From contig OMVT01000004.1 in NCBI GenBank assembly GCA_900314535.1, forward strand, positions 1 to 64,000: DNA of 64,000 nt, written 5' to 3'. Shown piece by piece: positions 39,685-50,789 of this stretch (position 1 is its first letter; each line of letters starts with the position of its first letter). Source of the stretch: an uncultured Olsenella sp. (GTDB lineage Bacteria > Actinomycetota > Coriobacteriia > Coriobacteriales > Atopobiaceae). Below the pieces are notes generated by a model, which was not told where the DNA came from, did not search any database, and was given only the letters and a program-made list of their open reading frames with translations. The translations under genes were made by a program, and so were the position numbers.

Positions 39685-40629
39685 TTAACCTTCTGCTGGC
39701 TGGCCCGAGAAGTTGAGGCCATCCGTGAGCTCTGCTGCCTCCGCGAGCGTGAAGCTGTCATCGGCGAAGAGCGCAAGCGCAGACGAAGCGCGCTTCCTGG
39801 CTGCGTCATAGATGTCCCAGAAGGAATCGGTCGACTCCTCCTTCGTGAACGGATTCGTCCACGAAGCGTGGCCCCTGTTGTCGAAGTCGCTCGTCTCCTC
39901 CGCACGAGCCCGGTGCGCCATCGCGCGCTCGAGCGAATACGGCTTTCTTGTCGCAAGCTTCTCGACCGTGCCGAGCACTCCTGCCTTCTGGCCATTCTTC
40001 GAATAGAACAGGTGCTGCACGACGCGGAAGTCATGCACAGCCTTCACATAGAGGTTCTGCGGCGCATAGAGGCCATAGACGCTCTGGAGCACGAGCGCAT
40101 ACATGCGGCCCACGGCTTCGAGCGCCGGCTCGTCGAGGCGCAGCACCTCGCGGTAGGGCTTGTAGGTCTGGACCGTGCGGTGAAGCTTCGTATAGAGCAC
40201 CATCTCGTCGAAGTCTCGCTCGATCTCTGCGTGCACATAGGAGCCGGCGGAACGGTCAAGCCCCTCGACGCCAGCATCGCAGAACGCATACTGCTCGGCA
40301 TAGACGAGCGGATGCATCGCGGAGTCGAGGAGATAGTGGCAGAGGAACCCGAGCGCATAGGCACGCCCGCTTGCACGGTCGCTGCTGTCGAGCGCCTCAT
40401 AGGCCAGGCGCATCGCACAGATGAGCGACGTCGGCCTCTCATGGTGCATCACATCGCCGACATTGCGGAAGTCCTTGAGCGCAGGATCGATGAGGGTGTA
40501 GAAGAGCGGGTCCGGCCCCTGGTTGCCGAGAAGGAACGCATCGCGCTCGTCTGCCGTCATGCCGATCGTCGAAAAGCACTCGTCGTAGACGTCCTTGCCG
40601 AAGAAATCGTGCGTCATTATTGCAGGCAT
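39685..40629 (-). CDS. Zinc-dependent phospholipase C-like protein (paralogue 1)
   Basis: The 314-residue protein has the all-helical fold of zinc-dependent phospholipase C proteins. The start MPAIMTHDFFGKDVY carries a metal-type His at position 7. FLLGNQGPDPLFY follows and the core is FLCHYLLDSAMHPLVY, with H-x3-D-x3-H ligands. It lacks a signal peptide, so it is probably cytosolic or membrane-associated and not a secreted toxin. The C-terminal part has AMAHRARAEETSDF and ASWTNPFT. A second, diverged copy lies at 49824. Enzymatic activity is not shown; family membership is fairly certain. Confidence 0.85.
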   Translation of the reverse strand: MPAIMTHDFFGKDVYDECFSTIGMTADERDAFLLGNQGPDPLFYTLIDPALKDFRNVGDVMHHERPTSLICAMRLAYEALDSSDRASGRAYALGFLCHYLLDSAMHPLVYAEQYAFCDAGVEGLDRSAGSYVHAEIERDFDEMVLYTKLHRTVQTYKPYREVLRLDEPALEAVGRMYALVLQSVYGLYAPQNLYVKAVHDFRVVQHLFYSKNGQKAGVLGTVEKLATRKPYSLERAMAHRARAEETSDFDNRGHASWTNPFTKEESTDSFWDIYDAARKRASSALALFADDSFTLAEAAELTDGLNFSGQPAEG

Positions 40630-42160: not shown

Positions 42161-42721
42161 CTAGCGCTTCGTGTGCCTCTCGATATCGTCTCTCTCCCAT
42201 GTCTCGATCGGCACGAGATAGCCGCGGTCTTTCAGCTTCTCCTCGACCGCATCGAGGATATCCTCGGAAGGCGCGCTGATATGGTGGAAGTGGTAGCCAT
42301 CTGTGAGGAGCATGAGGGGCGAAGATACCCCTGAATGGATGCCCTCCAGGAAGTCCTGGACATCCCGCCTGCTCCTGGCACCGAGCGGGGCCGAGATGAC
42401 GCCGTAGGTCCTGTGGTTCACGATCACGTCCTCCATCGTGGCCCCGGCATCGACGACGATATCCATCTCGTCCTCGAGCTGATCGTCGGTGTGGTGGCAT
42501 TTGATGAGGCGGCGAAGCCCCTTCCTCTCTTCGCGGAGCACATACCCAGTATGGAGCCCCACGATCTCGTGGCCTTCATGCCGGAGGAGCGCGATATCCT
42601 GGACGATGACCTGGCGGCTCACCCGGAGCATGTCAGAAAGCTCCTTGCCAGAGAGCGGACGCGCGCTCCCCTCGAGTGCTGCCACGATCTGCCTGCGCCT
42701 TGCTGCGCCGTCCATTCCCAT
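42161..42721 (-). CDS. niaR: NiaR-type repressor of NAD synthesis (HTH and 3H domains)
   Basis: The 186-residue regulator has an N-terminal HTH (RRRQIVAALEGSARPLSGKE, then MLRVSRQVIVQDIALLRHEG) and a C-terminal 3H domain. The metal ligands of that domain are seen as CHHTDDQLEDE (about 75-85) and YHFHHIS (about 143-149). In relatives the 3H domain binds nickel and niacin, and the protein represses nad genes when niacin is present. I set the start at MGMDGAARRRQIV because CTGGAG precedes it and the upstream part is antisense or shifted nadBC sequence. It starts 5 nt after nadBC, last gene of nadA-nadBC-niaR. Confidence 0.93.
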   Translation of the reverse strand: MGMDGAARRRQIVAALEGSARPLSGKELSDMLRVSRQVIVQDIALLRHEGHEIVGLHTGYVLREERKGLRRLIKCHHTDDQLEDEMDIVVDAGATMEDVIVNHRTYGVISAPLGARSRRDVQDFLEGIHSGVSSPLMLLTDGYHFHHISAPSEDILDAVEEKLKDRGYLVPIETWERDDIERHTKR

Positions 42722-42726
42722 CGCTT

Positions 42727-44955
42727 CTACTCCAGCATCGTCAGATTCTTGTTGCTGAGATCGAGGATGCCGGCAGAATGCGTCAGCGCCCCGCTCGAGA
42801 TGTAGTCTATCCCGAGATCTGCCATCTGGGGAGCATTCTCGAGCGTGATGTTGCCGGAGCACTCTGTGAGGGCACGGCCATCGATGATCTTGATGGCCTC
42901 CTTCATCTGCTCGTGCGTCATGTTGTCGAGCATGATGACATCAGCGTGTGCGGCGACTGCTTCCTTCACCTGGGCAATCGTCTCGCACTCGACCTCAATG
43001 CGGTAGATGAAGGGGCTCCTCCTCTTCGCTGCTGCCACAGCCTGGCGGATGCCTCCAGCAGCGGCGATATGGTTGTCCTTGAGCATGACAGCATCAGAGA
43101 GGCCGAAGCGGTGGTTCGTGCCGCCGCCGATTCTCACTGCCATCTTCTCGAAGTAGCGCATGCCAGGCGTCGTCTTCCTCGTATCGACGAGCGTCGCCTT
43201 GGCGCCTGCCTGCTGGAGCGCCTGCACCATCTCATGCGTATAGGTTGCAATGCCGCTCATGCGCTGCAGGTAGTTGAGGGCGGTCCTTTCGCCCGAGAGC
43301 AGTGCCCTTACATCTGCCTCGACCTCGGCGATGACCTGGCCAGGCATGACTTCGTCGCCGTCTCCGGCACGGGCCACCATCACGGCAGAGGCATCGAGCA
43401 GCTTGTAGACGCGGAAGTAGATATCGATGCCGGCAAGTATGCCCTGCTGCTTGCAGATGAGCTGCACGCGGGCACGGCGGGCACGGGGCATGACAGCCTC
43501 GGTCGAGACATCGCCGTAGGGCATATCCTCGGCAAGCGCCTCCCTGATGTGGTTGTCAATCATGAGGCCCAGCGAAGAGGTATCCATGCTGTGGCCCTTC
43601 TGATAGCTCGGCGTGAGCGGCCTCGGCTCGCCCACGGCAGGGTGCTTCATGGTCTCGTCCATCTCGATCCTCCTTGTAGGTGCGGCAGGTGCCGTCTTCT
43701 TCGGCTCGAGCATCCAGGAGCCGAATTCCTTCTGGTCAGAGATCATCCTCTTTGCAGCACGGGCAGAGAAGACAAGGCTCTCGAGCAGGCTGTTCGAGGC
43801 AAGGCGGTTCTTTCCGTGCACGCCGTTGCAGCTTGTCTCGCCTGCTGCAAAGAGATGGTTCATGGTCGTCTCGGAATCCTCGCCGACATGTATGCCGCCC
43901 ATGAAGTAGTGCTGGGCGGGGACGACAGGGATGGGCTCCTTCGTGATATCGTAGCCCTCCTCGAGGCAGTGCTCGTAGATGTGCTTGAAGTGGTGGCGGA
44001 TCGTCTGCTCATCGATGTTCTTGAAGCTGAGCCAGACGTGGTTCGTGCCTTCCTTCTTCATCTCTTCGTGGATGGCAGCAGACACCACATCGCGCGGCTG
44101 GAGCTCATCGGTGAAGCGCTCCATCTTGCCGTTCAGGAGCACCGCGCCTTCGCCCCTGCAGGACTCGGAGATCAGGAAGCTCCTGCCAGGCTTCGTCGTC
44201 CAGAGGCTCGTCGGATGGATCTGGATGTAGTCGGTATGCTCGAGCGCGACGCCGTGCTCCTTTGCGATGCGCACGCCGTCTCCCGTGAGCAGCGGATAGT
44301 TCGTGCTGTGCGTGAAGAGGCCGCCGATGCCACCCGTGGCAAGAAGCGTATGGTGCGCATGCAGGCGAAGCACCGTGCCGTCGCGCCTTACAGCCACAAG
44401 GCCTGCGCAGTACGGCGTACCATTCTGGTCCTTGCGCTCGATGAGGTCGACCATCTCAGTGTTCTCGAGAATCTCGACGTTTTTGAGCTTCTTCACCTGT
44501 GCCAGAAGCTTTGTCGTGATCTCCTTGCCCGTGATGTCCTCGTGGAAGAGGATCCTCGGGCGTGAGTGCGCGCCTTCGCGCGTGAACGCAAGGCTGCCAT
44601 CGGAAGTGCGTGCGAACTCCACGCCGTAGTCGATGAGGCGCTTGATCGTCGGGCGCGACTCCTGAATCATGATCTTCACGGATTCGCGGCGGTTCTCATA
44701 GTGTCCTGCCCGAAGGGTATCCTCGAAGAATGCCTTGTAGTCGTTATCGTCGTGCTGGACGCAGATGCCGCCCTGCGCAAGCATCGAATCGCATTCCTCG
44801 AGCGTGCCCTTCGAGAGCATGACAATGCGGGCGGAGGCAGGAAGCGTCAGGGCACAGAAGAGTCCTGCGACGCCGCACCCCGCAATCGCCACATCGCATG
44901 ATTCGTCCTGCGGCTCTGCTGTGCGGGCCGCCTCGATAGTCTCTTCTGTTTCCAT
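42727..44955 (-). CDS. nadBC: Fused L-aspartate oxidase / quinolinate phosphoribosyltransferase (NadB-NadC)
   Basis: The single 742-residue frame has two enzymes. Residues 1 to about 430 are NadB: FAD motif AIAGCGVAGL (24-33), TREGAHSRPRILFHEDITG, ESCRGEGA, QPRDVVSAAI, HYFMGGIHV and GKNRLASNSLLESL, so active-site Glu, His and Arg residues are kept. The C-terminal helical domain (about 110-130 residues in E. coli NadB) is missing. A Pro/Thr/Lys linker of about 35 residues follows. Residues from about 463 on are NadC: LIDNH-type start, RTALNYLQRMSGIAT, VDTRKTTPGMRYFEK, RIGGGTNHRFGLSDAVMLKDNH and ECSGNITLEN. The fusion joins the FAD oxidase and the phosphoribosyltransferase on either side of NadA. 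It lies 5 nt after nadA and 5 nt before niaR. Confidence 0.93.
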   Translation of the reverse strand: METEETIEAARTAEPQDESCDVAIAGCGVAGLFCALTLPASARIVMLSKGTLEECDSMLAQGGICVQHDDNDYKAFFEDTLRAGHYENRRESVKIMIQESRPTIKRLIDYGVEFARTSDGSLAFTREGAHSRPRILFHEDITGKEITTKLLAQVKKLKNVEILENTEMVDLIERKDQNGTPYCAGLVAVRRDGTVLRLHAHHTLLATGGIGGLFTHSTNYPLLTGDGVRIAKEHGVALEHTDYIQIHPTSLWTTKPGRSFLISESCRGEGAVLLNGKMERFTDELQPRDVVSAAIHEEMKKEGTNHVWLSFKNIDEQTIRHHFKHIYEHCLEEGYDITKEPIPVVPAQHYFMGGIHVGEDSETTMNHLFAAGETSCNGVHGKNRLASNSLLESLVFSARAAKRMISDQKEFGSWMLEPKKTAPAAPTRRIEMDETMKHPAVGEPRPLTPSYQKGHSMDTSSLGLMIDNHIREALAEDMPYGDVSTEAVMPRARRARVQLICKQQGILAGIDIYFRVYKLLDASAVMVARAGDGDEVMPGQVIAEVEADVRALLSGERTALNYLQRMSGIATYTHEMVQALQQAGAKATLVDTRKTTPGMRYFEKMAVRIGGGTNHRFGLSDAVMLKDNHIAAAGGIRQAVAAAKRRSPFIYRIEVECETIAQVKEAVAAHADVIMLDNMTHEQMKEAIKIIDGRALTECSGNITLENAPQMADLGIDYISSGALTHSAGILDLSNKNLTMLE

Positions 44956-44960
44956 GGCTC

Positions 44961-45896
44961 CTAGTCTTTCGCAAGCTCCAGCATGCGCCTGAGCGCACGG
45001 CGTGCGCCCTCGGTCGCAGCGTCATCGACCTCGACCTCGCCCGACCCGGTCTCGAGGCACGAGAGGATCTTCTGGCCTGTCACCATTGCCATGTTCGGGC
45101 AGATGGGCGTCGTCTCAGGGAAGAAGATCTCCTTTCCCTGGCCGGCGATCTTCTGCTCGATCGTGCGGCGGACGCCAATCACGGTAGCGATGATGTAGGA
45201 CTTCTCCTCGCCTTCGGCGACGCGCTTGATGATGCCTGAGGTCGAACCGACATAGTCTGCTGCCTCGACGACCCAGGGCGTGCATTCAGGATGGGCGCAG
45301 ACCACGGCATCAGGATGCGCGGCCTTGAGCTTCTCGATCTCGGCAAGCTCGATTGCCTCATGCGTCGGGCAGAATCCGTCGTTCAGGATCACATGCTTTT
45401 CCGGCACCTGGTCAGCCACATAGCGGCCGAGGTTCATGTCCGGAATGAACAGGACGTGGTGCTGGGGCAGCCTGCGCACGATCTTCACGGCATTCGAGGA
45501 GGTGACACAGACATCGGACCATGCCTTCATCTCGGTCGTCGAGTTCACATAGCAGGCAACAGCGAGGTCGTCTCCGTACTCGGTACGAGCGTTATCGACC
45601 GTCTCCTTCACGACCATGTGCGCCATCGGGCAGTCAGCCTTCGGCTCGGGCATGAGGACACGCTTCTCGGGCGACAGCAGCTTTGCGCTCTCTGCCATGA
45701 AGCGCACGCCAGCAAAGACGAGCGTCTTGCAGTCGAGTCCGGCAGCAAGCTTGCTCAGATAGAAGGAGTCGCCGATATAGTCTGCCACTTCCTGTGCAGA
45801 GTCCTTCACGTAGTAGTGGGCAAGGATGACGGCATCCTGCTCCTTCTTGAGCTCGGCGATGCGCGCAGCCATCGTGCCTGTGGTCTTCGTGTCCAT
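44961..45896 (-). CDS. nadA: Quinolinate synthase NadA
   Basis: NadA condenses iminoaspartate (from NadB) with dihydroxyacetone phosphate to quinolinate using a 4Fe-4S cluster. The 311-residue protein has three conserved Cys positions: AVACYVNSTTE, CAHPECTPWV and PICPNMAMVTG. It also has AHYYVKDSAQEVADYIGDS, FAGVRFMAESAKLLSPEK and PDMNLGRYV. It is the first gene of the NAD operon, with a candidate NiaR operator at its promoter. This makes de novo NAD synthesis complete in one operon. Confidence 0.97.
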   Translation of the reverse strand: MDTKTTGTMAARIAELKKEQDAVILAHYYVKDSAQEVADYIGDSFYLSKLAAGLDCKTLVFAGVRFMAESAKLLSPEKRVLMPEPKADCPMAHMVVKETVDNARTEYGDDLAVACYVNSTTEMKAWSDVCVTSSNAVKIVRRLPQHHVLFIPDMNLGRYVADQVPEKHVILNDGFCPTHEAIELAEIEKLKAAHPDAVVCAHPECTPWVVEAADYVGSTSGIIKRVAEGEEKSYIIATVIGVRRTIEQKIAGQGKEIFFPETTPICPNMAMVTGQKILSCLETGSGEVEVDDAATEGARRALRRMLELAKD

Positions 45897-45928: not shown

Positions 45929-45965
45929 AGTATGGCAGCTGTCATGTCATCTGACAAGACAGATG
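45929..45965 (-). promoter_or_regulatory. nadA promoter with candidate NiaR operator
   Basis: On the minus strand TTGTCA (45957-45952), a 17-bp spacer and CATACT (45934-45929) form a promoter 32 nt before the nadA ATG. The dyad CATCTG-ACAAGA-CAGATG (45948-45965 on the plus strand) covers the -35 box. It resembles remembered NiaR sites built around ACAGATG/CATCTGT half-sites. With niaR as the last gene, autorepression of the operon is likely. Confidence 0.55.
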
Positions 45966-46091: not shown

Positions 46092-49000
46092 CTATTCGCT
46101 TCTCAGCGCCTCGACCGGATCTTCATGGGCTGCCTTCCTCGACGGGATGAGGCCCGCCAGGAACGTGAGCAGGACCGAGATGCCGATCAATGCCAATGCC
46201 GACTGCCAGGAGAGCCTCATGATGTTCGGCACATCGTAGACCGAAAGCACATAGGCATTGACCGGGACCGAGACGCCTAGCGTGATCAGGATGCCCATGA
46301 GGCCAGAGATGAAGCCCTCGATCACGGTCTCGGCATTGAAGACAGAGCTCACGTTGTGCTTGCTCGCGCCAAGCGCGCGGAGAATGCCGATCTCCTTCTT
46401 GCGCTCGAGGACGGAGATGTAGGTGATCACGGCGATCATGATCGAAGACACGACGAGCGAGATCGAGACGAAGGCGATGAGGATGCGGCTGATCATATCG
46501 ACAATATGGGTCACGGACTGCATGAGCGTGCCCACGATATCGGTATAGCTGATCTTCTTCGCCTCATCGGTCTGCTGGTCGTTGTAGTCGTCGAGGATCT
46601 CTATGACCTTGTTCTTGTCCTGGAAGTCCCCCGGATAGATGTCGATCTCTGAAGGCGTTGCAGGATCGGCATAGCCGAGCTTTGCGAGGTTGTCGTCGTA
46701 GCTGGCGCTCGAGTTCGAGAGCATGCCGGCCATGAGCTCCTTGAGCTGCGTCTCGTCGATATTGAGGCTGAAGGCGCTCTTGATCTTGTCCCCATCGACC
46801 GAGATCGCATTCGGGAACGAGGCCTGAAGCCTGCCCATGCTTGTCTGGAGGGCACTCGTGAGCTGGGTCTCGATAGCAGCAGAGGTCTGCTGCATGACAG
46901 AGGAGAAGGCAGACTGGATGTAGGACGTGAGGGCGGTTGTGATCTTTGCCTCGAGCTGGCTTTCCACCTGGCTTGCCAGCTGGGACACGATTTGGGACTC
47001 CAGGGCCTTTGCGACCGAGCTCTGGATCTTCTCGTCGACGATGCCGGAGAGCCGCTGCTCTATCTGGCTCTCGATCTCATCGAAGTTCACGATCTTGCGT
47101 ACGCCGTCCTCGATCTCCTTCTTCGTGCTGTCGAGGAGGAAGTAGTCCTGGACCTGGGCGTCTGGATGCTCCTGCATGTAGGTTTGCCAGCCTCGCACAA
47201 GCTCGGCTGTGAGTGCCTGGGCCGCTGTCTGGTCGAACTTGATATCGAGGCCGGAGACGAGCTCCCGCACATCGATATCGGAGAAGTCAGGAAGGAGCTC
47301 CTTGATCTCGTCCGTGCTGAGCGAGGAGACATCGATGCCGGAAAGGTCGAGCGAAGACATATCGACAGACGAAAGGTCGAGTGCCGGCACATCGATCGTG
47401 GGCGTCCGCATGGACGACATGTCGAGGTCGGAAAGATCGAGGTCGAGCTTCGAGGTATCGAACGAGAACGAGGCCTTGAGGGCATCCGTATCCACATTGA
47501 AGAGGTTCGAGAGATCGATATCCTCCCCTGCCGTGCCTGCCGCCTCCTCGGCGAAGGTCTTGCCGGTGAAGACGTCGGTTTGAGGATCTGCCAGCTGCTG
47601 CTTCACGATGTCGGCATCTGCTGCGTGTGCCATCACATCCTTCGTGAGGGCGCTCGTGTAGTAGATGCCCGGATCGAGCGAAGAGGAGGAATCTGTTGCC
47701 TGGACGATGCCGACAACATGGATGTCCTTGCCAGACGAGACAAGCGACTTCATGAAGTCCGCATCATCCGAGCGGTCCGTCCAGATCCTGTACTGCTCGT
47801 CATAGGCATAGATGTCGGTCGGATAGACAAGCTTGAGATGAGCCGCCAGGATATCGTCTGTCGAGTAGCTCGCTCCGCTTTCTGCATCGATCGCGGACTC
47901 TTCGGTGGAGGAGCTCTCGGCGTTCGTGAGCGTCGAGACCATGTAGTCGAGCTGGCTGTGGTCGCGAAGGCCCAGCTCGAAGGCATCGAGATCGGGAAGC
48001 GTGCCATCAGGCCTGAGAACGACCAAGAGCTCGTCTTCAGCTTGCGGCCACTCACCTGCCACGAGGTTGTACTGGCTCTTGATGAGGTCGGTATCGTCCA
48101 TGAGCTCATGGAACGCGCTTGTCTGCGAGGTCATGCTCGAGGAGATCGAGGAGGAGACACCAAGTCCGAGCTGCGTGAACGAGGACTCGGGATTCACCTC
48201 CGCGACCGTGCCATCGGCATTCTCGAGGTAGAGCTCGGGCTTCACGTCGTAGGAGTACTGGATGGCGCGGGCATGCTGATGGATTCCTCCGCCATCGGCG
48301 TCAAGGTATTCCTTGAGCGATCTGAGGTCGTTCTTTCCGACGCTCTTGAACATGTTCGTGATGGTCGGCGCTTCCTTGATGCCGGAATCGGAAGAGCCAT
48401 CATCAGAGGAGCTGCCAGATGAGCCAGACGAGCCTGCCGTGCCATTCACCGACGAGAGGACGGACGTGATATCGAAGCTCGTGCCCTGGATCTGGAGCGG
48501 ATAGACCGTGAGCATCTTCTCTTCGGTATCCTCGATATAGCCGTTCGCGCCGTTCGCAAGCGCCAGGATCGCAGCGATGCCGATGATGCCGATGGAGCCG
48601 GCGAAGGCCGTGAGGAAGGTCCTTCCCTTCTTGGTCATGAGGTTCGCAAACGAGAGGCCGAGTGCCGTGAGGAAGGACATCGCAGTCTTGCGGGGAGGCT
48701 TTGCAGCCCTGTGCGTGGCATCAAGAGACGGGTCATAAGGGTCGGTATCGGATCTGATCGTGCCGTCCTTGAGCTCGACGATGCGCGTCGAGTAGCGGCG
48801 TGCGAGCTCGGGGTTGTGCGTCACCATGATCACGAGGCGGTCCTGGGCAACCTCCTTCAGAAGATCCATGACCTGGACGGAGGTCTCGGAGTCCAAAGCT
48901 CCTGTCGGCTCATCTGCCAGCACGATCTCAGGGTTGTTCACAAGGGCACGGGCCAGCGCCACGCGCTGCATCTGGCCACCCGAGAGCTGCGAGGGCTTCT

Positions 49001-49409
49001 TGTCGGCATGTTCGGCAAGGCCGACCTTGGAAAGCGCTTCCCTCGCCCTCTTCTCGCGCTCGGACGCTCCGACGCCTGAGAGCGTGAGCGCCAGCTCGAC
49101 ATTGGCAAGGACCGTCTGGTGCGGAATCAGGTTGTAGCTCTGGAACACGAAGCCGATCCTGTTGTTGCGGTAGGTGTCCCAGTCGCGGTCGCGGTAGCGC
49201 TTCGTCGAGATGCCGTCGATCAGAAGGTCGCCGTCGTCGAAGTGGTCTAGGCCGCCGATCATGTTGAGCATCGTCGTCTTGCCCGAGCCGGAGGGTCCGA
49301 GAATGGAGACGAATTCGCAGTCACGGAATGCGAGCGACACGTCGTCGAGCGCCTTCTGCGTGAACGTGCCGGTCGTATACGACTTGGAGATATGGGAGAG
49401 TTCGAGCAT
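46092..49409 (-). CDS. MacB-like ABC protein (ATPase fused to FtsX-type permease) with long extracellular domain
   Basis: The 1105-residue protein has an N-terminal ATPase (Walker A GPSGSGKTT 38-46, LSGGQ 142-146, Walker B with E167, VTHN) joined to an FtsX-type permease. The first transmembrane segment lies near 265-290. An extracellular region of about 650 residues follows, then three transmembrane segments in the last 150 residues with ERKKEIGILRALGASK and IPSRKAAHEDPVEALRSE. The outer region has a Ser-rich linker (near 320-345), a run of Leu/Asp/Ser repeats (about 655-715) and a long Gln/Glu/Ser coiled coil (about 755-860). Related MacB-like systems move lipoproteins, peptides or antibiotics, or signal to wall hydrolases. 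Substrate is unknown. No partner protein is adjacent. Confidence 0.88.
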   Translation of the reverse strand: MLELSHISKSYTTGTFTQKALDDVSLAFRDCEFVSILGPSGSGKTTMLNMIGGLDHFDDGDLLIDGISTKRYRDRDWDTYRNNRIGFVFQSYNLIPHQTVLANVELALTLSGVGASEREKRAREALSKVGLAEHADKKPSQLSGGQMQRVALARALVNNPEIVLADEPTGALDSETSVQVMDLLKEVAQDRLVIMVTHNPELARRYSTRIVELKDGTIRSDTDPYDPSLDATHRAAKPPRKTAMSFLTALGLSFANLMTKKGRTFLTAFAGSIGIIGIAAILALANGANGYIEDTEEKMLTVYPLQIQGTSFDITSVLSSVNGTAGSSGSSGSSSDDGSSDSGIKEAPTITNMFKSVGKNDLRSLKEYLDADGGGIHQHARAIQYSYDVKPELYLENADGTVAEVNPESSFTQLGLGVSSSISSSMTSQTSAFHELMDDTDLIKSQYNLVAGEWPQAEDELLVVLRPDGTLPDLDAFELGLRDHSQLDYMVSTLTNAESSSTEESAIDAESGASYSTDDILAAHLKLVYPTDIYAYDEQYRIWTDRSDDADFMKSLVSSGKDIHVVGIVQATDSSSSLDPGIYYTSALTKDVMAHAADADIVKQQLADPQTDVFTGKTFAEEAAGTAGEDIDLSNLFNVDTDALKASFSFDTSKLDLDLSDLDMSSMRTPTIDVPALDLSSVDMSSLDLSGIDVSSLSTDEIKELLPDFSDIDVRELVSGLDIKFDQTAAQALTAELVRGWQTYMQEHPDAQVQDYFLLDSTKKEIEDGVRKIVNFDEIESQIEQRLSGIVDEKIQSSVAKALESQIVSQLASQVESQLEAKITTALTSYIQSAFSSVMQQTSAAIETQLTSALQTSMGRLQASFPNAISVDGDKIKSAFSLNIDETQLKELMAGMLSNSSASYDDNLAKLGYADPATPSEIDIYPGDFQDKNKVIEILDDYNDQQTDEAKKISYTDIVGTLMQSVTHIVDMISRILIAFVSISLVVSSIMIAVITYISVLERKKEIGILRALGASKHNVSSVFNAETVIEGFISGLMGILITLGVSVPVNAYVLSVYDVPNIMRLSWQSALALIGISVLLTFLAGLIPSRKAAHEDPVEALRSE

Positions 49410-49823: not shown

Positions 49824-50789
49824 ATGCCAGCCATCATCACGCACTACTTCTACGGGCAGGACATGTATTTCACGGCAGCGAACTCGCTCAAGAGCGAATC
49901 CGATGAGGAGCGCAAGGCCTATCTTCTGGGCTGCCAGGGCCCCGATCCCTTCGAGTCGCTCGATCTCGATCCGCGCCTCAAGGAATACCGCAATATCGCG
50001 AAGCTCCTCCACACGGAGAAGATCGAGGAGTGCATCGCCGCCTTCAAGGGCTCGCTTGCCTACCTCTCAGACCATGAGAGGCCGACGGGACGTGCCTATG
50101 TGGCAGGCTATATCAGCCACTTCGAGCTCGATTCGAGGGTCGGACCGTTTGTGGCAAGCTGGACCCGCGGCATCTGCGAGGCAGGCGTCGAAGGCCTCGA
50201 CGAGCGCGATGCAAAGGTCGTCACGGCAGAGGTCGAGCGCGACCTCGACGAGATGGTGCTCTACACGAAGTCCGGCAAGACCGTCGAGACCTTCCACCCA
50301 GCCCATGAGTGCCTCGATGCCACCGAGCGCATCCTCGGCATCTGCGACAGGATGTATCGCTACATGCTCTTGAAGGTCTATGGGCTCGTCGTGCCGCACA
50401 CGCTCTTCTCTGGCGCCATCAATGCCCACAGGACCCTCATGCGCCTCATGAGGGCACCGCACCTGACCGATGCGAAGTCCCAGATCGCCTCTGCGATCGA
50501 GGTCAATGTCCTGCACCGCCGCCATTCGCTCTACCGGGCCATGGCACACAGGGCAAGGAAGGAAGCCTCCTCTGTCTTCGAGAACAGGGAGCACCAGACG
50601 TGGACCGATCCCTATACGGGCCATGAGCACACGGCAAGCTTCTGGGATCTCTACTACGGCACGCAGGGCGAGCTGCAGTGCGATCTCAAGTGCTTCCTCG
50701 ATGATGGCTTCGATGCTCAGAAAGCCCAATCCATCACCCATGGCAAGGACTTCGACGGCAGGCCCGAGAAGGCCGGAGAGACCCTGTAA
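49824..50789 (+). CDS. Zinc-dependent phospholipase C-like protein (paralogue 2)
   Basis: The 321-residue protein is a diverged copy of the gene at 39685: MPAIITHYFYGQDMY, YLLGCQGPDPFESL, AGVEGLDERDAKVVTAEVER, DEMVLYTK and AMAHRARKEASSVFENREHQTW align along the length. The central ligand segment reads YISHFELDSRVGPFV, where the other copy has CHYLLDSAMHP. The second His of the H-x3-D-x3-H set is therefore lost, and activity may be reduced or changed. There is no signal peptide. Its stop shares an A with the start of the NUDIX gene (TAATG), so the two are cotranslated. Ribosome site is GACAGGAGGG. Confidence 0.82.
   Translation: MPAIITHYFYGQDMYFTAANSLKSESDEERKAYLLGCQGPDPFESLDLDPRLKEYRNIAKLLHTEKIEECIAAFKGSLAYLSDHERPTGRAYVAGYISHFELDSRVGPFVASWTRGICEAGVEGLDERDAKVVTAEVERDLDEMVLYTKSGKTVETFHPAHECLDATERILGICDRMYRYMLLKVYGLVVPHTLFSGAINAHRTLMRLMRAPHLTDAKSQIASAIEVNVLHRRHSLYRAMAHRARKEASSVFENREHQTWTDPYTGHEHTASFWDLYYGTQGELQCDLKCFLDDGFDAQKAQSITHGKDFDGRPEKAGETL

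Follow-up and report, generated by a model that had tools for sequence, protein, structure and literature searches.

Described relatives and make-up of the fused gene

The closest described relatives of the protein studied here are single enzymes. E. coli NadB (PDB entries 1chu and 1knp) shares its FAD and capping domains and catalytic residues with our protein, but is a separate chain with about 130 more C-terminal residues. S. pyogenes NadC (5hup/5hul) shows about 47% identity over the entire NadC domain, with all checked sites kept, whereas the NadC domain studied here is fused at its N-terminus to NadB. A short type of L-aspartate oxidase is represented by the NCBIfam model NF004820 (PRK06175), which with its 433 positions also lacks the C-terminal helical domain. 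Our protein passes the cut-off of this model (510.9 bits vs 472); the match ends at model position 389, and the chain then continues into NadC. In Olsenella and Collinsella, split nadA-nadB-nadC operons have the same gene order and a similarly short NadB, but a stop codon or a frame change separates nadB from nadC. A NadB-NadC fusion is unmentioned in passages of PMC6593275, PMC7713382, PMC4217691 and PMC4432964, and no report of one was found in the literature searched, which is weak evidence as subscription papers mostly fell outside the search.

The DNA analyzed is a stretch of 64,000 nucleotides from an uncultured Olsenella sp. (hereafter the window), in which Rfam and tRNA scans found nothing. 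The nadBC gene (42727..44955, minus strand) runs from ATG to TAG through 742 codons with no internal stop. It was annotated from the open reading frame, Pfam, NCBIfam and the predicted structure as a putative bifunctional L-aspartate oxidase/quinolinate phosphoribosyltransferase of 742 aa. Pfam matches are FAD_binding_2 (residues 21-390), QRPTase_N (482-567) and QRPTase_C (569-734). The NadB part (residues 1-408; 43732..44955, minus strand) has no C-terminal helical domain, its last predicted helix spanning residues 388-411. It is followed by a linker (residues 409-456; 43588..43731, minus strand), delimited by substitution rates against a second species, G096, and by the predicted structure, and by the NadC part (residues 457-742; 42730..43587, minus strand), delimited by Pfam, NCBIfam, Foldseek and conserved sites. 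The NadC part matches TIGR00078 (336.9 bits vs a cut-off of 198.4) and both PF02749 and PF01729. The longer NadB model TIGR00551 (489 positions) stayed below its cut-off (386.3 vs 452.75), as expected because the NadB part is of the short type.

A sequence-only reading had proposed an uninterrupted 742-codon NadB-NadC frame with intact active-site residues in NadB, a complete quinolinate phosphoribosyltransferase and no NadA, and these points were borne out. The frame is open and both domains exceed their NCBIfam cut-offs; TIGR00078 and both Pfam domains account for a complete NadC; no NadA domain is present in the chain, nadA being a separate upstream gene. All the active-site residues that were checked are present. 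E. coli NadB residues E121, Q242, H244, R290, H351 and R386, which we take to be catalytic, are all identical in the aligned window protein. The NadC residues of the GER, DTRK, NHR, LKDN, EVE and LDN motifs are conserved in 20/20 fused proteins (see below); the active-site Arg, Lys, His, Glu and Asp positions are taken from the M. tuberculosis enzyme. Overall, the catalytic positions are kept in all 20 fused proteins, except for a gap at 263-264 in one.

The short NadB precedes the fusion

Alignment of the NadB part with E. coli NadB (540 aa) gave 157 identical residues out of 396 and extended to about E. coli residue 410. The C-terminal ~130 residues of the E. coli enzyme are thus absent, in agreement with the 110-130 missing residues estimated earlier. 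E. coli NadB (1knp) was also the top Foldseek match of the NadB part in the PDB (408 columns, rmsd 2.2), and S. pyogenes NadC (5hup) that of the NadC part. The suggested link between the fusion and the loss of this domain did not hold. The C-terminal helical domain, a feature of the E. coli type only, is absent from the window protein and from split relatives alike, and the NF004820 model is already short. NadB of split relatives usually extends 4 to 50 residues beyond the anchor; a few tails are longer and have unrelated sequences. Clostridial relatives likewise have a short NadB. The fusion was therefore ruled out as the cause of the truncation. Because the split relatives and the NCBIfam short-NadB model already lack the domain, these comparisons place the truncation before the fusion and indicate that NadB is short throughout the lineage. 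Membership in the short NadB type does not depend on the C-terminal helical domain. Separately, in two f3 genomes (L140 and L188), NadB ends in an unusual acidic tail of about 255-264 residues.

Operon organization and putative regulation

The fused gene is part of a nadA-nadBC-niaR operon. The upstream gene, nadA (44961..45896, minus strand), was identified as quinolinate synthase from the ORF, Pfam and NCBIfam and lies five bases upstream of the nadBC ATG. The last gene of the operon, after the nadBC stop codon, encodes a NiaR-like repressor with HTH_11 and 3H domains (42161..42721, minus strand; ATG placed at 42721 from the sequence). A sigma-70-like promoter, TTGTCA-17-CATACT, is located upstream of nadA (45929..45957, minus strand); two such sites were found, with 1.2 expected by chance. 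It is overlapped by the palindrome TGTCAGATGACATGACA (45940..45956, minus strand), a candidate NiaR operator that is identical in G096. The promoter stretch containing TGTCAGATGACATGACA is near-identical between the window and G096 (L164:3700-3935), while the flanks differ. NiaR may control the operon.

Other genes in the vicinity were noted. The operon is flanked by genes at 39685-40629 (minus strand) and 49824-50789 (plus strand), whose products, of about 315-320 aa, resemble each other (MPAI.TH.F.G.. starts) and are likely paralogues. At 46092-49409 (minus strand), a 1105-aa ABC transporter, read by eye, combines an ATPase domain and a permease in one chain, with a long inserted extracytoplasmic region.

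Distribution and history of the fusion

The same join, with no stop codon, is present in G096, a second species, 82% identical. A further 17 fused Atopobiaceae genomes have a very short junction, two in genus g9 and 15 in genus g13; a restriction of the fusion to the window's genus (g1) was thus ruled out by reading their junctions. In total, 20 of the 146 fetched loci with both domains are fused, in a set that counts some genomes twice (e.g., L006/L058, L029/L054, L062/L064 and L034/L035; L006, from G015, matches part of L058, Olsenella sp. An188, exactly, which identifies family f1 as Atopobiaceae). These 20 are the window's genome (G000) and G096 in g1, G114 and G228 in g9, the 15 g13 genomes, and L042. 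The search of the family Atopobiaceae (f1) matched 110 of 140 genomes; weaker matches in G243 (g13) and G229 (g9) lie outside the fetched loci. The order search matched 298 of 395 genomes, and none of 15 further loci, taken from among the matches listed, was fused. The genome-contig search yielded one fused locus out of 23. This locus, L042 (JAFQWG010000006.1), is from a goat-colon Agathobacter draft genome (Lachnospiraceae), the one draft genome from which that fusion is known, and its join seems to have formed when the NadB tail was deleted together with the stop codon. Among the actinobacterial loci examined, fusions were found in 19 Atopobiaceae genomes, in none of 12 loci with full-length NadB from other orders of the class, and in none of the 19 full-length-NadB loci with a NadC match from other Actinomycetota (out of 20 retrieved, for the most part because of their long open frames). 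No relatives were found in viral contigs and plasmids.

In split neighbours, nadB and nadC are adjacent, and the length of an open frame was not a reliable sign of fusion: G268, G214, G128, G287 and G293, with equal open-frame lengths, are all split, as is G392 with its 708-aa frame. The split locus of G197 (L172), placed in the same genus as the window, was rejected as a picture of the ancestral state. The nad genes of this genome group with clostridial genes, and nadA is inverted, so they were probably replaced horizontally and say little about the ancestor.

A tree of 46 loci (IQ-TREE, linker excluded) grouped g1, g9 and g13 in one clade (bootstrap 96, SH-aLRT 90) and placed L042 among split Lachnospiraceae. 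The fewest fusion changes on this tree is two. Quick trees on other samples recovered the same clade with lower support (87; 92). By the simplest history that these trees suggest, g1, g9 and g13 inherited one fusion from their common ancestor and L042 acquired another. Two independent events in Atopobiaceae are possible, given that the junctions of g1 and of g9/g13 differ so much.

Two kinds of junction and possible internal nadC starts

Two kinds of join, newly distinguished here, are apparent in the sequences. In g9/g13, only a few residues separate the NadB helix from NadC, and the nadC start signals are degraded. The former NadC start is an ATG in G228 only and GTG, GTA, GTC, ATA or ATC in the others, and ribosome-site energies at this position are weak (0 to -6.6 kcal/mol). 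As the nadC ribosome site is gone and the start codon mostly replaced, the fusion appears to be obligate in these 17 genomes. In g1 and in L042, a Shine-Dalgarno-like site with an ATG is present. The g1 linker is about 45-55 residues long and contains two Shine-Dalgarno-like sites, each with an ATG. In the window, the motif AAGGAGG lies six bases upstream of the in-frame ATG of Met432 (43660..43675, minus strand; duplex energy -11.2 kcal/mol), and AGAAGGG precedes the ATG of Met457, the ancestral NadC start (43585..43601, minus strand; -7.6 kcal/mol). The sites of G096, at Met430 and Met464, both have -9.7, and one is homologous to the Met457 site. L042 has a AAAAGAGG-like site and ATG, as in its split relative L051.

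A free NadC may thus be made from an internal start in the window's lineage and in L042. The corresponding alternative, one gene with two products in which free NadC from Met432 or Met457 would raise NadC above NadB, is plausible but less likely than not. The Met432 site is rare, as only 3 of the 349 internal ATGs in coding frames of the window, Met432 included, reach -11 or lower; 16 of the 349, including Met457, reach -7.5 or lower. The energy at the NadC ATG of L042 is -11.1, and nadC starts of split relatives have a median of -9.6 (n = 112; best ATG within 14 codons taken, hence biased low). However, chance alone also produces strong sites within genes: G096 has one of -10.6 at Met669 of NadC, and in three g13 loci an ATG 14 codons inside NadC has a value of -9.3. 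MAFFT did not align the Met432 site with the Met430 site. Finally, 11 of 13 amino acids at linker residues 444-456 are conserved between the two g1 sequences compared while synonymous sites have changed; conservation is thus at the protein level, which makes the conserved nucleotides preceding Met457 weaker evidence for a ribosome site.

Selection on the fused protein and its possible benefit

Each fused Atopobiaceae genome has exactly one PF01729 match, inside the fused frame (19/19), and one PF02445 (NadA) match beside it (19/19; two cut by contig ends). Since no other NadC was found in fused genomes, the fused protein would have to supply NadC if the pathway is used. Between the two g1 species, dN is well below dS in NadB (0.152 / 0.81) and in NadC (0.074 / 0.74), and four g13 pairs compared over the whole chain are alike (dN 0.022-0.069, dS 0.40-1.49). 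In the window's lineage, purifying selection therefore acts on both domains. The linker middle is hypervariable (dN 0.73 / dS 1.33).

Such a linker is also what a selectively neutral fusion would leave: after loss of the stop codon, the join would have had no effect, the operon already giving co-expression. Most examined relatives are unfused, in line with this reading, to which we give real but minority weight. Against it, the fusion has been kept in three genera. Reversal would now be costly in g9/g13 because the separate nadC start is degraded, yet such entrenchment requires no benefit.

A metabolon, in which NadA would dock between the catalytic parts of NadBC and iminoaspartate and quinolinate would be handed between active sites, is unlikely. 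Because the join leaves out NadA, clustering of all three enzymes would be functionally sensible, and nadA is the next gene upstream of the fusion in the window, in 18/18 other fused Atopobiaceae genomes (two at contig ends) and in L042. However, nadA adjoins in many split relatives too, so this adjacency is not specific. The conserved segment 444-456 could serve in docking, but it is defined by only two sequences, and junction length varies greatly among lineages. AlphaFold2 predicted two confident domains joined by a disordered linker for the window protein (mean pLDDT 87.7, pTM 0.61), with residues 415-461 under 50, and gave a similar result for a short-junction protein of g13 (pLDDT 90.4, pTM 0.61; residues 393-401 under 50). 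With junctions under 50 and a pTM of 0.61 in both, the predicted models suggest no fixed domain arrangement. A combined reading, in which a dual-output gene makes the NadB-NadC chain and free NadC, NadBC scaffolds a NadA cluster, and g9/g13 represent a locked end state without free NadC, is quite improbable.

A sequencing or assembly artefact, i.e., a stop codon or frameshift missed between the two genes, which the single in-frame stop often present at this place in split neighbours might suggest, has a negligible probability, being excluded by G096, whose linker is open yet different in length and sequence, with 17 more genomes also fused.

Proposed origin and role of NadBC

We consider it likely that nadBC encodes a bifunctional enzyme that arose by an in-frame join of neighbouring nadB and nadC genes, with NadB already short. 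In the ancestral nadA-nadB-nadC operon, NadB would have been without the C-terminal helical domain, through an earlier loss or from the outset, when nadB was joined in-frame to nadC. The NadB part would oxidize aspartate to iminoaspartate, separately made NadA would condense iminoaspartate to quinolinate, and the NadC part, on the same chain as NadB, would convert quinolinate to nicotinate mononucleotide. With both activities predicted, the join would mainly fix the NadB:NadC stoichiometry, and a flexible tether would hold the parts close. A further reading, with moderate support, is that an internal ribosome site kept in the window's lineage supplies some free NadC from this mRNA. The most economical interpretation is a flexible tether that fixes the stoichiometry, and a neutral fusion would look the same as an advantage of tethering.

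The fusion is thus real, old enough to span genera and, judging from its sequence, bifunctional; its parts are all known enzymes. It joins two non-consecutive steps (one and three) of the universal NAD pathway, which hints that NadA, NadB and NadC cooperate, and it includes a NadB without the helical domain that is kept under selection. The possible series from split genes to a fusion with an internal start, and then to a fusion without one, would offer a testable case of operon neighbours becoming one protein.
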